A stretch of 13,389 nt of DNA from Erysipelotrichia bacterium (lineage in GTDB: Bacteria; Bacillota_I; Bacilli_A; Erysipelotrichales; Erysipelotrichaceae): the NCBI GenBank assembly GCA_009929095.1, contig SABF01000022.1, positions 1 to 13,389 of the forward strand, in the 5' to 3' direction. Each line of letters opens with the position of its first letter. Position 1 is the stretch's first letter. This document shows, piece by piece, positions 2,482 to 6,866 of the stretch. The translations under genes were made by a program, and so were the position numbers. The notes beneath the pieces are model-generated. The model had not been told where the DNA came from. It saw only the letters and a program-made list of their open reading frames with translations, and made no database searches.

Positions 2482-2726
2482 AGACTGATTACACCTCCTG
2501 TCCTTTAATCATACATTTCTGAAGCCTGCTGGTGTCGGGTAATTATTCTACTGATGAGCTTTTGTTTGGGGATCGAATGAATCACTGCGATCCAATAAAG
2601 CAATTCGATACGATATTGCAGGATTTACAAAAGATAAGGGTTCAGCTGCCGAATAATACAATATTGAGGTATTTCATGTATAAATCAGGCTGCCTGAAAG
2701 GATTCTCAGCCTTGGAAGATAACAGT

Positions 2727-2948
2727 ATTTTCAGAAAAGAAAGCCTGGAGAGGGTTTCCTCTCCGGAGCAGCTTAATGACTATATCAAGGTATCCAATTC
2801 GGGCGTCTGGATGATACTTATCGCTATCATTGTGCTTCTGATCGGTGTTTTTGTCTGGAGCTTTTTTAGCCGCCTTGATACTAAACTGACGGCATCTGCT
2901 CAGGTGACCGGAAGAAATGCAGTCTGCTCTGCCATGAATCTCTATTGA
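2727..2948 (+). pseudogene. Truncated HlyD-like secretion protein of an NHLM-type bacteriocin exporter
   Basis: The frame opens at a GTG at 2532 with no ribosome site, but recognisable homology starts at 2727 with IFRKESLERVSSPEQLNDYI. This is the N-terminus of the membrane-fusion (HlyD-like) protein of NHLM bacteriocin systems. A single membrane segment follows (roughly 2808-2867, WMILIAIIVLLIGVFVWSFF), then the start of the extracytoplasmic part (SRLDTKLTASAQVTG). The normal protein runs for several hundred residues, with a long coiled coil and beta-barrel. Here the frame leaves homology near 2925 and stops at 2946-2948. The 60 or so residues before 2727 are unrecognised and may be a remnant of another gene. 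I infer a deletion-truncated pseudogene. Confidence 0.72.
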
Positions 2949-3020
2949 TCGGCGGCTGCCAAATCAGAATCCGGAATGGGCAGATCCTTTTATTACCGTT
3001 CTTTCAGCAATGGCGGTTAT
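2941..3020 (+). pseudogene. Fragment of a first NHLM-type ABC transporter (transmembrane start)
   Basis: In the frame of 2941 this short stretch reads SIDRRLPNQNPEWADPFITV followed by LSAMAVI and a TAG at 3021. It resembles the beginning of the transmembrane domain of the peptidase-containing NHLM ABC transporter, where an FxDxxL...W..P pattern precedes the second helix. Only about 27 residues remain out of some 700. The fragment overlaps the end of the HlyD-like frame and continues, past the TAG, in the same frame into the linker of the second ABC transporter. A large deletion therefore probably joined the two genes. The assignment rests on a short pattern and is tentative. Confidence 0.4.
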
Positions 3021-3023
3021 TTA

Positions 3024-3807
3024 GCTGATTCTGGATGCTGTACCGGAGATCTCTGTTGGCAAACAGGTTATCACAAAGCTGTCCGGCCGAATTGAATGAC
3101 ATTTCCTTTGGCTGCAGCAAGAATATGCCGCTGGTGCTTGAGAACTTTTCACTGAAGATCAATCCTGACCAGTATGTTGCCATTGTCGGAACTATCGGAT
3201 GCGGAAAGTCCACTCTGATGAGAATTATGCTTGGCTTTGAGACTCCTTCAAAAGGGCGGTGTATTATGATGGCAGAGATCTGAAATCGCTGAGGAGAAAG
3301 ATTGGCACGGCAATGCAGGCTGGCAGGCTGTTCCAAGGAGATATCTATTCCAACATTACAATCTCAGCTCCATGGCTGAAGATGAATGAAGCCTGGGAAG
3401 CTGCGGAACTGGCTGGCATTGCCGATGACATTCGTCGCATGTCAATGACTATGAACACGATGATTTCAGAAGGATCCGGGGACATTTCCGGCGGCCAGCG
3501 GCAGAGACTCATGACTGCCAGGGCGATTGCACCAAAGCCAAAGATTCTGATGTTTGATGAGGCAGCCAGTGCTCTGGATAATCTGACTCAGAAAAAAGTG
3601 TCATCCTCTCTGGATGCACTGAAATGAACGCATATTGTAATTGCTCACAGACTCTCCACAATCAAGCAGTGCGATCACATTGTCGTAGTGGATAAGGGAA
3701 AGATAATTGAAGATGGCAGATATGAGGAACTGATTGCAAAAGGAGGTTTCTTTGCCGAACTTATTGCAAGACAGCGTATTGATGATGAGAGCAGTGCTGC
3801 AGTTTAG
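3024..3807 (+). pseudogene. Broken NHLM-type ABC transporter, ATP-binding domain only
   Basis: This is the nucleotide-binding half of an exporter of the second NHLM bacteriocin ABC family, spread over three frames. 3024-3096 gives the linker LILDAVPEISVGKQVITKLS. 3095-3255 gives LNDISFGCSKNMPLVLENFS and Walker A (GTIGCGKST, near 3187-3213). 3256-3807 gives AVYYDGRDL, the Q-loop (GTAMQAGRL), EAWEAAELAGIADDIRRM, the signature SGGQRQRL, Walker B (ILMFDEAASALD) and the switch histidine (VIAHRLST). Two frameshifts (near 3091-3097 and in the G run at 3254-3256) and an in-frame TGA (3625-3627) break it. The transmembrane domain is missing. The LGFE, EAWEAA and ADDIRRM-SMTMNTMISEG stretches are the family fingerprint. 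It cannot make a working transporter, but the conserved motifs suggest fairly recent decay. Confidence 0.85.
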
Positions 3808-3871: not shown

Positions 3872-4084
3872 ATGTTTTGTTTATCTGCAGATAATCAGCT
3901 GGATGATGTAAGCGGTGGAATAGGCAGAATGGATTTAAATGTGAATTTAAACGGGATAGAGGAAATTAAGAGCAATATGCCAGTCGTTCGTGTTCCTGGT
4001 CTCGAAAAGAATAATCAGAAACTGACGAAAGAGAAAAATGATCGTATTAGAAACGATCTTAGCAAGAGGATAATTAAGGCTTAA
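3872..4084 (+). CDS. Small ORF with a double-glycine leader ending (possible RiPP precursor or remnant)
   Basis: The 70-residue product begins MFCLSADNQLDDVSGGIGR. The LSxxxLDDVSGG pattern is the usual end of leader peptides in NHLM/Nif11-type and other double-glycine peptide precursors, which a C39 peptidase cuts after GG before export. The remaining 54 residues are charged and contain no cysteine; they include NVNLNGIEEIKSNMPVVRVP and a lysine/arginine-rich tail. The leader is very short (16 residues against the usual 40-70), a TGA sits in frame at 3863-3865, and no clear ribosome site is present. It lies 64 bases after the broken ABC gene. I infer either a precursor that has lost its 5' end or a remnant; a coincidental match is less likely given the neighbours. 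Confidence 0.45.
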   Translation: MFCLSADNQLDDVSGGIGRMDLNVNLNGIEEIKSNMPVVRVPGLEKNNQKLTKEKNDRIRNDLSKRIIKA

Positions 4085-4279: not shown

Positions 4280-4308
4280 TTGAAGCAGTATGTGAACGCT
4301 TATATAAT
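4280..4308 (+). promoter_or_regulatory. Sigma-A type promoter for the large lipoprotein gene
   Basis: TTGAAG (4280-4285), a 17-base spacer and a perfect TATAAT (4303-4308) form a strong housekeeping promoter. Transcription would begin near 4315, essentially at the ATG at 4316, so the mRNA may be leaderless. Confidence 0.6.
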
Positions 4309-4315
4309 GGTATTT

Positions 4316-5554
4316 ATGACAAATAAAAGAAAATATAGAAAAGATGCATGTCTGTTAGTGGCAAGTGTATTGATGCTGGGCGGATGCTCATCCGGCAGAA
4401 AAACTTCCTCTGCTGTGCCGTCTGTCTCGGCAGATGCGACAGTGACAGCTGTTTCGGGTATTGTGACTGGATATGAGAATTATGCGGCTGCTCTGGGGTC
4501 AGTTAAGGTCGCTGACAGCTACAGTGCCGGAGTGAAGTGCAGTTATGATATGAAGTACTCAGATGGATCTGTTCAGACCTATGATCTGGACGGGGTTCTG
4601 CAGGTACAGAATATCTCTTCGGCTCCTGCTGCGCATATGACTCAGAATATAAATGGAAATGGAATGGAATCCGCCATTGATGGCTTCTATTATGACGGAA
4701 GGCTGTACAACACATACAACAATGTTACTTATTATGAAGACATGGAATTCTCGGATCTGAAGTCGGCAATGCTGGTACCGATAGACGCGGTATCAATCAA
4801 AAGAGAAGAAATTCAGTCGATTACATCTGTGCAGACTGACAATGGCATGAAGTATTCTATTGCCCTGAAACCGGAGGCTGCACAGTCATACTTCAATAAC
4901 CGATATGATTTCAATTCTCTGAAGGGTTATGACAATTTTGCGGTGAATTCCGGAATGATCGCTCAGACGTTTTCTGAAGATGGCTATCTGATGCAGCAGA
5001 CAGCCGACTTTGCGGTTTCTCTGAGTTCTGGGAATGTGACTGTCGATGTGACTTATAGTTCCAGTGTAGGATTTGTTAAATCTGACAGCACTTCAGTGAC
5101 TGTCTCAGATACACAGAAGACAGCTTTTGCCAAATATGTAAACTATCGCGATATTGATACAGATGCCATCAGCCCGAAGGATACTTCCTCAGATGCTGAA
5201 GAGGCAACTGTTACTGCTACCTTCCAGAAACGTCTGGTTAATCGTTTGGACTATACGAAAGAATCTGATAGCAGCTATAAGACATCCTTCAATGATACTG
5301 AATCATATACAATAGATTTTGCGAATGACATCTTCACATATACCAACAGATCTTCCTCCTATACCTATAACTGGAAAGGAGATACCGGAGGATTTGGCAA
5401 TTCCTGCAACTATAACTTTGAAACAGACAGTTCAATGACCGGCTGTGACAGTGATGTGCTGGATATGGTTAAAAACGTCAAGACATTCTTTGAGATGGAA
5501 TTGTATTACTGCGGTCTGTCTCTGGATGATCTGGCAGCGGAGGTAAGGAAATGA
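4316..5554 (+). CDS. Large predicted surface lipoprotein, function unknown
   Basis: From the ATG at 4316 the product is 412 residues. It starts with a basic stretch (TNKRKYRKD), a hydrophobic core (residues 11-23) and a lipobox LGGC with Cys24 as the predicted lipidated residue, so it should be anchored on the outer face of the membrane. The rest is rich in Ser, Thr, Tyr, Asp and Asn and has alternating beta-strand patterns. Stretches such as NGMESAIDGFYYDGRLYNTY resemble LolA/LppX-fold or DUF6612-type lipoproteins, but I cannot assign a family. An acidic Ser/Asp linker (SPKDTSSDAEEA) divides an N-terminal domain of about 280 residues from a C-terminal one of about 110. The frame can be extended to a TTG at 4280, but that codon is the -35 box and would put extra residues ahead of the signal peptide. 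The stop overlaps the next gene by four bases. Confidence 0.8.
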   Translation: MTNKRKYRKDACLLVASVLMLGGCSSGRKTSSAVPSVSADATVTAVSGIVTGYENYAAALGSVKVADSYSAGVKCSYDMKYSDGSVQTYDLDGVLQVQNISSAPAAHMTQNINGNGMESAIDGFYYDGRLYNTYNNVTYYEDMEFSDLKSAMLVPIDAVSIKREEIQSITSVQTDNGMKYSIALKPEAAQSYFNNRYDFNSLKGYDNFAVNSGMIAQTFSEDGYLMQQTADFAVSLSSGNVTVDVTYSSSVGFVKSDSTSVTVSDTQKTAFAKYVNYRDIDTDAISPKDTSSDAEEATVTATFQKRLVNRLDYTKESDSSYKTSFNDTESYTIDFANDIFTYTNRSSSYTYNWKGDTGGFGNSCNYNFETDSSMTGCDSDVLDMVKNVKTFFEMELYYCGLSLDDLAAEVRK

Positions 5555-6276
5555 ACAGTTCAGCGGCATTCTTTGATATTGACGGAACGATTTATCGTGA
5601 AGGACTGATTACCGAAGTATTCAAGAAGATGGTCACACATGAAATTATTGCGCCTGAGCGATGGACAGATGATGTGAAACCAGCATACATGGCATGGGAC
5701 AGAAGAACCGGAGACTATGATGATTATCTTTCCCGCATGGTAGAAATTTTTAAAGAAGCAACCAAGGGGATGTCCAGCGAACATATTGAACTGATTGCGA
5801 GAAAAGTAATTGAACAGAAGGGTGAACGGGTCTATCTGTTTACCAGAAATGAAATCGAACGACATCGCAGAGAAGGCCGAAAGATAATTGCAATTTCCGG
5901 TTCTCCGGATGCACTGGTTCGCTGCATGGCGGAGAAGTATCATTTTGATGACTGGCGCGGAACTGTTTATGAAACAGATGATAAAGGCATTTATACCGGC
6001 GTGATCACTCCGATGTGGGACAGTGTATCTAAAAAGAAGTCGATCATAGAAATGAAGGATCTGTATCATCTGGATCTATCAGAGTGCTATTCCTATGGAG
6101 ATACCAATGGGGATCTGACAATGTTTGAACTCACCGGTCATCCGACAGCAGTCAACCCAACCAAGGAGCTGCTGACTAATATTCGCAGTGATGCAGAACT
6201 GCTGAAGCGTATCCGGGTGATTGTAGAACGCAAAGATGTGATTTATCACATCGATCCCAATACTGTGACTATATGA
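5551..6276 (+). CDS. HAD-IB family hydrolase (SerB-like phosphatase)
   Basis: The product is 241 residues and has all four HAD motifs. Motif I is FFDIDGT, with nucleophile Asp9 and acid/base Asp11. Motif II is ISGSP (Ser116-Ser118). Motif III is a lysine around Lys161-163. Motif IV is GDTNGDLTMF (Asp184, Asp188). Residues 15-110 form the helical C1-type cap of subclass IB, the group that includes phosphoserine phosphatase and various hypothetical phosphatases. The HPTAVNPTKEL stretch near residue 198 is also typical of IB members. It should remove phosphate from a small phosphorylated metabolite in the cytoplasm; the substrate cannot be read from sequence. A GGAGG site lies about eight bases ahead of the ATG, and the start overlaps the lipoprotein stop (ATGA). 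Confidence 0.88.
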   Translation: MNSSAAFFDIDGTIYREGLITEVFKKMVTHEIIAPERWTDDVKPAYMAWDRRTGDYDDYLSRMVEIFKEATKGMSSEHIELIARKVIEQKGERVYLFTRNEIERHRREGRKIIAISGSPDALVRCMAEKYHFDDWRGTVYETDDKGIYTGVITPMWDSVSKKKSIIEMKDLYHLDLSECYSYGDTNGDLTMFELTGHPTAVNPTKELLTNIRSDAELLKRIRVIVERKDVIYHIDPNTVTI

Positions 6277-6866
6277 GTGATGATGAACTGAACAGACTGA
6301 TCAGGCAGGCAAGGGATCATCAAATTCCGGTTATGAAAGAGGAAGGAATAGCCTTTCTCAGACAATTGCTACAGGAACGGGAAGAGATACAGAAGATTCT
6401 GGAAGTTGGTACAGCAGTAGGATGTTCGAGCATGGAGATGGCATCGGTCAGGGAAGATATCATGATTGATACTTTGGAACTGGATCCTGAACGGGCACAG
6501 CAGGCAGTGAAAAATATCCATGACTGCGGATACAGTGATCGCATCTTTGTCCATGTGGGAGAAGCTGCGGAGTATATTACCATGGCTGTATATGATCTGA
6601 TTTTCATTGATGCGGCTAAATCTCAGTACGGACGATACACGGAGCACTTCATGGAGAATTCTCATATTGGCACATTATTTGTCTATGACAATCTGTCGTT
6701 TCATGGCATTGTAGATGATCCGGCATTATCGCATAATCGCAGTACTCTGCAGATGACAAGAAAGATCAGAGAATTCCGTGAGCATCTTCTGAATGATAAA
6801 CGCTTTCATACCATCTTCTATGAGGAGATCGGGGATGGCGTTGCAGCAGCAGAACGCATTATATAA
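6273..6866 (+). CDS. SAM-dependent O-methyltransferase, TrmR/YrrM-like
   Basis: The product is 197 residues of the Methyltransf_3 (catechol O-methyltransferase-like) family. SAM-binding motif I is ILEVGTAVGCSS (residues 42-53), the acidic ribose-contact region is TLELDPERA (67-75), and the metal-binding set is Asp113 (LIFIDAAKSQY), Asp139 and Asn140 (VYDNLSFHG). The QIPVMKEEGIAFL start and ending GDGVAAAERI fit YrrM/TrmR, which in Bacillus methylates 5-hydroxyuridine in tRNA to make 5-methoxyuridine. It is about 20 residues shorter at the N-terminus than Bacillus YrrM. The ATG overlaps the HAD stop (ATGA) and there is no ribosome site of its own, so translation is probably coupled. The tRNA substrate is inferred from family likeness only; small-molecule methylation is possible. 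Confidence 0.78.
   Translation: MSDDELNRLIRQARDHQIPVMKEEGIAFLRQLLQEREEIQKILEVGTAVGCSSMEMASVREDIMIDTLELDPERAQQAVKNIHDCGYSDRIFVHVGEAAEYITMAVYDLIFIDAAKSQYGRYTEHFMENSHIGTLFVYDNLSFHGIVDDPALSHNRSTLQMTRKIREFREHLLNDKRFHTIFYEEIGDGVAAAERII

Follow-up and report, generated by a model that had tools for sequence, protein, structure and literature searches.

Probable pseudogene remains of a peptide export operon of the NHLM/NHLP type in an Erysipelotrichaceae genome

A decayed export operon in native gene order

The stretch of DNA analysed here (13,389 nucleotides of contig SABF01000022.1 from a gut-dwelling Erysipelotrichia bacterium, hereafter the window) carries, with a probability that we put at about 0.93, a peptide export operon of the NHLM/NHLP type that survives as a pseudogene. 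When whole, it comprised a dwarf HlyD-like adaptor, a transporter with a C39 leader peptidase (ABC1) and a second ABC transporter (ABC2); a GG-leader precursor gene is probably still present downstream. Profile searches and alignments placed the start of the HlyD-like gene, a scrap of ABC1 and the ATPase end of ABC2 at positions 2715–3807, in native order and all on the forward strand (Table 1). The relic is of an ordinary kind, gene loss in an already known type of system, namely the export system that Haft et al. (2010; PMC2887384) associate with the families TIGR03794, TIGR03796 and TIGR03797. As in that system, the HlyD-like, peptidase-ABC and ABC genes are recognised by family and keep their order; unlike it, the window holds fragments only, and the adaptor of the gut operons belongs to a dwarf class. 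The interest of the locus lies in the presence of the relic in two strains, in an independent second collapse and in dwarf adaptors that score far under the current family cut-off.

The relic spans about 1.1 kb, against 4.9 kb for the same three genes in an intact Lachnospiraceae operon (L042, 5685–10573). What is kept amounts to the first 70 or so codons of the HlyD-like gene, 28 codons of ABC1 and an ABC2 ATPase end that changes frame twice, lacks five codons and is interrupted by an in-frame TGA (3625–3627). A first-pass annotation had described positions 2532–3807 as three successive NHLM-type genes surviving as fragments in their usual order. This is borne out by the TIGR03794 and TIGR03797 matches with the ABC1 scrap between them, and the coordinates fit except at the upstream end: the HlyD homology begins near 2715, and no convincing match to 2532–2714 was found among the proteins compared. 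In the open reading frame that carries the HlyD relic, about 60 codons precede the homology.

Table 1. Features of the relic in the window, with examples of dwarf HlyD-like genes from other loci.
Feature	Position	Strand	Support
Dwarf HlyD-like adaptor remnant (N-terminal motif, transmembrane segment, outer-domain start), about residues 3–71 of 157	2715–2936	+	TIGR03794 positions 1–47 (E 7.2e-8); profile built from ten short relatives, positions 2–74 of 157 at 2718–2936 (E 4.8e-31); alignment to L042 residues 3–71
ABC1 (C39 peptidase/permease/ATPase transporter) remnant, 28 codons, residues 195–222 of 727	2938–3021	+	Ungapped matches to several ABC1 proteins, including L042; 0/2000 shuffles as good
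ABC2 remnant, linker ahead of the ATPase domain, residues 468–490 of 736	3028–3096	+	Alignment to L042 ABC2
ABC2 remnant in a different frame, with Walker A, residues 490–545	3089–3262	+	TIGR03797 453–510; L042 alignment
ABC2 remnant, first frame again (Q-loop, signature, Walker B), five codons short relative to relatives, internal TGA at end, residues 544–673	3250–3627	+	TIGR03797 511–635, 178 bits; L042 alignment; second contig
ABC2 C-terminal remnant with switch histidine and the gene's stop, residues 675–731	3628–3807	+	TIGR03797 637–685; L042 alignment
70-aa ORF with GG leader (LSADNQLDDVSGG), probable orphaned precursor peptide gene	3872–4084	+	Sole ORF of the pattern in the window; near-identical copy on second contig
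Dwarf HlyD-like gene examples	L022:5908–6132; L042:5685–6158; L184:10920–11345

The ABC1 fragment is bounded by two stops, and its best six matches among ABC1 proteins had E values of about 2e-6 to 1e-5 in a small local set. Its score of 68 compares with a maximum of 45 for shuffled versions of the fragment. The peptidase part of ABC1 is entirely lost from the window. In this respect, the locus differs from the AMS/PCAT transporters, such as LahT of Lachnospiraceae C6A11 as described in PMC6363468, with which the ABC1 of the intact relatives shares the C39 peptidase, permease and ATPase build and the use of GG leaders.

For ABC2, TIGR03797 was the best family for all three pieces scanned (68, 178 and 71 bits), the middle piece reaching 178 bits against 95 for the runner-up family. 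No piece attained the curated family cut-off, as expected for fragments. ABC ATPase domains are broadly similar, and the same profile also picks out some ten further long ABC exporters of the source assembly, so that the remains of a generic lipid or multidrug exporter could be considered instead; the TIGR03797 best matches, together with the start of an NHLM-type HlyD gene and a piece of ABC1 in the correct order, rule this out for practical purposes and leave it a negligible chance. The first-pass annotation had named two outcomes that would speak against an NHLM locus, namely no match to the NHLM families, or best matches to such exporters with no HlyD-type neighbour; all three NHLM families were matched in native order, and both objections fail.

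Walker A is read in one frame; a second frame supplies the Q-loop, signature and Walker B, and the switch histidine is found only past the TGA. The ATP-binding motifs listed in the first-pass annotation are thus all present, but not on one chain, and since they are spread over separate reading pieces no working domain is left. Similarly, the large deletions it proposed stand for nearly all of ABC1 and for the ABC2 membrane domain, which is missing in the window, but not for the HlyD body, which was never large (see below). Family cut-offs are unreached, the three components are without open frames and the C39 leader peptidase is absent; judged from these features, the locus no longer exports any peptide.

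The same broken reading frame in a second strain

A protein search identified a separate contig of 4337 bases encoding a 122-aa piece of the middle of ABC2, 120 of whose 122 residues are identical to the window. Its start and its five-codon gap are the same, and its end coincides with the internal stop. A 70-aa protein identical at 69 of 70 positions to the peptide encoded at 3872–4084 comes from a contig of equal length, presumably this very one. The occurrence of the same broken frame on a second contig argues for a real, inherited pseudogene, and at least the lesions of the 122-aa frame appear to be common to a second, slightly different strain. The comparison was made through these two encoded proteins, and the HlyD/ABC1 and ABC1/ABC2 junctions are known from the window alone.

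An intact operon wrongly collapsed during metagenome assembly, or a sequencing artefact, has to be weighed because the source assembly is fragmented (2.14 Mb in 507 contigs, 74.6% complete). It is very unlikely: an error of this kind would have to account for a stop, frame changes and the loss of five codons on top of two large deletions, and the second contig has the 122-aa piece with identical start, gap and end, yet with two differing residues, as well as a peptide copy differing by one. It is also extremely unlikely that the locus, though trimmed, still works, with the cell producing and using either the 122-aa ATPase piece or the 70-aa peptide. Both frames are indeed open and almost unchanged on the second contig, but short frames would stay open by chance between two close strains, the ATPase motifs are divided among separate pieces, the membrane domain is lost, and no C39 peptidase was detected in the 74.6% complete source assembly by a search that was positive in 8/14 control genomes. 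We therefore keep to an inherited relic. The first-pass annotation had supposed that the lineage once made and exported a ribosomal peptide and is now losing this ability. For the system at this locus, the loss already lies in the past, with several lesions present and at least some of them common to the second contig; the part of the claim that concerns the lineage is taken up below. The two strains provide a clean example of the death of a peptide export operon, with the ends kept, the middle lost and a probable precursor gene remaining, and they are a caution that a short NHLM match in a metagenome bin may mark a relic and not a cluster.

A candidate precursor peptide downstream

The 70-residue frame begins 64 bases after the ABC2 stop and carries the GG pattern near its start. 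No other ORF in the window has this pattern, which occurred once in 140 kb from 10 control loci of the genus and three times in total in 200 mononucleotide shuffles of the window. Among the 74 relatives with at least 1 kb of downstream sequence, a GG-pattern ORF within 1.5 kb after ABC2 and on the same strand was found in 14, compared with 1 of 48 control stretches. The first GG pattern was too narrow, having no match even in the window, and was widened after the window ORF had been seen and then applied equally to the controls; the motif search was therefore not blind.

From its position and leader, this frame is probably a precursor peptide gene that has been orphaned. This is the weakest part of our reading, because the leader of 16 aa is far shorter than the 66–85 aa given for NHLP/Nif11 precursors of anaerobes in PMC4289311, and because no GG-pattern ORF was found in 166 kb around the 11 intact operon loci of the genus, though a precursor would be expected beside every operon. 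In its favour, L011 and L022 are examples of loci with a short leader behind an intact ABC2 gene, and PMC6363468 describes a C39 domain, LahT150, for which the last 13 leader residues suffice. A protein search for homologues of the peptide returned only the copy of the second strain.

An independent collapse in the same genus

A second collapsed operon was found in a different species of the same genus. The genomes G004 (L177:4909–6596) and G050 (L184:6533–11345) are collinear and 90–95% identical around the operon, which in G050 encodes an HlyD of 141 aa, an ABC1 of 728 aa and an ABC2 of 728 aa. In G004, about 3.1 kb are missing from the HlyD start to the middle of ABC2, as read at the junction in that one draft assembly, and the HlyD start is fused to the ABC2 gene. 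A third genome, G042, has the same neighbours with the genes whole. The comparison of G004 with G050 shows loss by internal deletion with the operon ends kept. The alignments overlap by 10 bases at the G004 junction; microhomology was considered there and set aside, as the letters fit each parent imperfectly.

Like the window, G004 has an internal deletion that unites the HlyD start with the ABC2 gene. Unlike the window, it has a single deletion and an ABC2 that is mostly still open (516 aa). Its ABC2 belongs to another tree group and lies in another genomic place, so the event is independent of that in the window, which must have undergone an internal deletion of this type more than once.

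Going by the families, in the whole operon ABC1 would have cut the leader after GG, and ABC1, ABC2 and the membrane-anchored adaptor would together have exported the core peptide. Two large internal deletions, one from HlyD into ABC1 and one from ABC1 into ABC2, may then have been followed by drift, the five-codon loss, the two frame changes and the internal stop further destroying the operon, and the peptide gene would have been left as an orphan.

Dwarf HlyD-like adaptors

The intact HlyD-like partners in these operons are 72–172 aa long, not about 420, and fall into size classes of 72–81, 137–144 and 154–172 aa (loci L009–L088 and L167–L185). As the native partner is a dwarf, only about half of the HlyD-like gene has been lost from the window. 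The classes share the N-terminal motif, most members carry a P-x-(S/T)-(F/Y)-like tail, and they match only the first 50 or so of the 421 TIGR03794 positions, far below the family cut-off. Of 92 loci, 12 gave no dwarf-HlyD match; in each of these the ABC2 match lies no more than 3.5 kb from where the locus begins, too near to include the gene.

A predicted model of the 157-aa adaptor resembles the beta-barrel domain of membrane-fusion proteins. A Foldseek search with the model gave no match at E 0.001 or better, and a sequence search of the PDB gave a single, unconvincing match (E 0.58). We consider it likely that the NHLM exporters of gut monoderms work with a dwarf membrane-fusion protein lacking the lipoyl and coiled-coil parts, reduced either to the anchor and only the beta-barrel domain of the classical adaptors (about 137–172 aa) or to little beyond the anchor and a short conserved tail (about 72–81 aa); that the decayed copy in the window is one of the class of about 157 aa; and that the genus has repeatedly acquired such operons and lost them again through internal deletion. 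Of the by-products of this work, the dwarf adaptors are the most interesting, and they open up the question of the role of an adaptor in a cell without an outer membrane.

Two further observations concern these genes. In addition to the main-operon copy, L042 (14793–20381) and the same region of L037 each carry a further dwarf HlyD-like gene, of 157 and 160 aa respectively, with no ABC1 motif directly after it. In L086, the gene is split into reading pieces of 47 and 108 aa ahead of ABC1; this may be a further case of early decay, or the sequence may be in error.

Genomic context and history of the operon

No intact ABC1 or ABC2 above the family cut-offs was found in the source assembly, which is 74.6% complete, so that an intact copy could be absent from it. 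No peptide-modifying enzyme was recognised among the window proteins scanned, and the product class of the former system cannot be named. The O-methyltransferase encoded at 6273–6866 was considered for this role and rejected: homologues occur near the same lipoprotein gene (4280–5554 in the window) in 4/10 loci (L157, L163, L164 and L166), none of which shows the relic, and it was therefore taken as a common neighbour. The lipoprotein gene itself has homologues in 66/70 genomes of the genus, with a variable gene order upstream of it.

The search for an intact cluster in close relatives, which had been proposed as a check, was successful in part. Intact operons of the same build were found in relatives, but none beside the lipoprotein gene: in the 18 genomes having both this gene and a TIGR03797 match (E 1e-100 or better), the two were on one contig in 0/18, a set that includes matches of just 343 and 373 bits in G064 and G067, that of G067 being to its ABC1. 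The collinear genomes G004, G050 and G042 served as the comparison in its place. Matches above cut-off were found in 9/70 genomes of the genus for TIGR03797 and in 17/70 for TIGR03796; short-HlyD matches were found in 20/70, the source genome and G004 included.

In a tree of 122 ABC2 residues, the window and the second strain group together (100/100), and weakly (82/84, 90/90) with L065, L042 and L037 from Lachnospiraceae. The copies from the genus are spread over several groups, with the relic apart from the intact ones. Given the length of the alignment, 44/102 inner branches left open and bootstrap values that had not settled, this tree permits a weak statement only. The grouping with Lachnospiraceae copies suggests acquisition followed by loss; gain from elsewhere would fit the data but is not proven.

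Intact Lachnospiraceae operons (such as L042 and that of Murimonas intestini, L012) have the gene order of the relic, and the nearest sequence relatives of its ABC2 are among them; unlike the window, they have all genes open, precursors after ABC2 and modifying enzymes close by. L042 holds a Nif11-type leader (TIGR03798, 28.4 bits, below the cut-off of 32.3). In M. intestini, the operon is accompanied by LanM-type and radical SAM enzymes and by an ORF that resembles a precursor. The reading as export of a peptide natural product is upheld by such relatives, as intact operons of the same order adjoin GG-leader ORFs (the 14/74 above) and, in L012, the LanM-type and radical SAM enzymes. We are less sure that the lineage itself made the product for long than that this locus was once able to, owing to the weak grouping with Lachnospiraceae copies and to the lack of both a recognised modifying enzyme and a nameable product class.

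Finally, a second, more distant pair of an ABC1-like (about 595–613 bits, below cut-off) and an ABC2-like gene recurs in the genus (G012:C23, G013:C243, G022:C17, G026:C12, G027:C70, G030:C277, G055:C25 and G063:C43) and is perhaps a sister export system.
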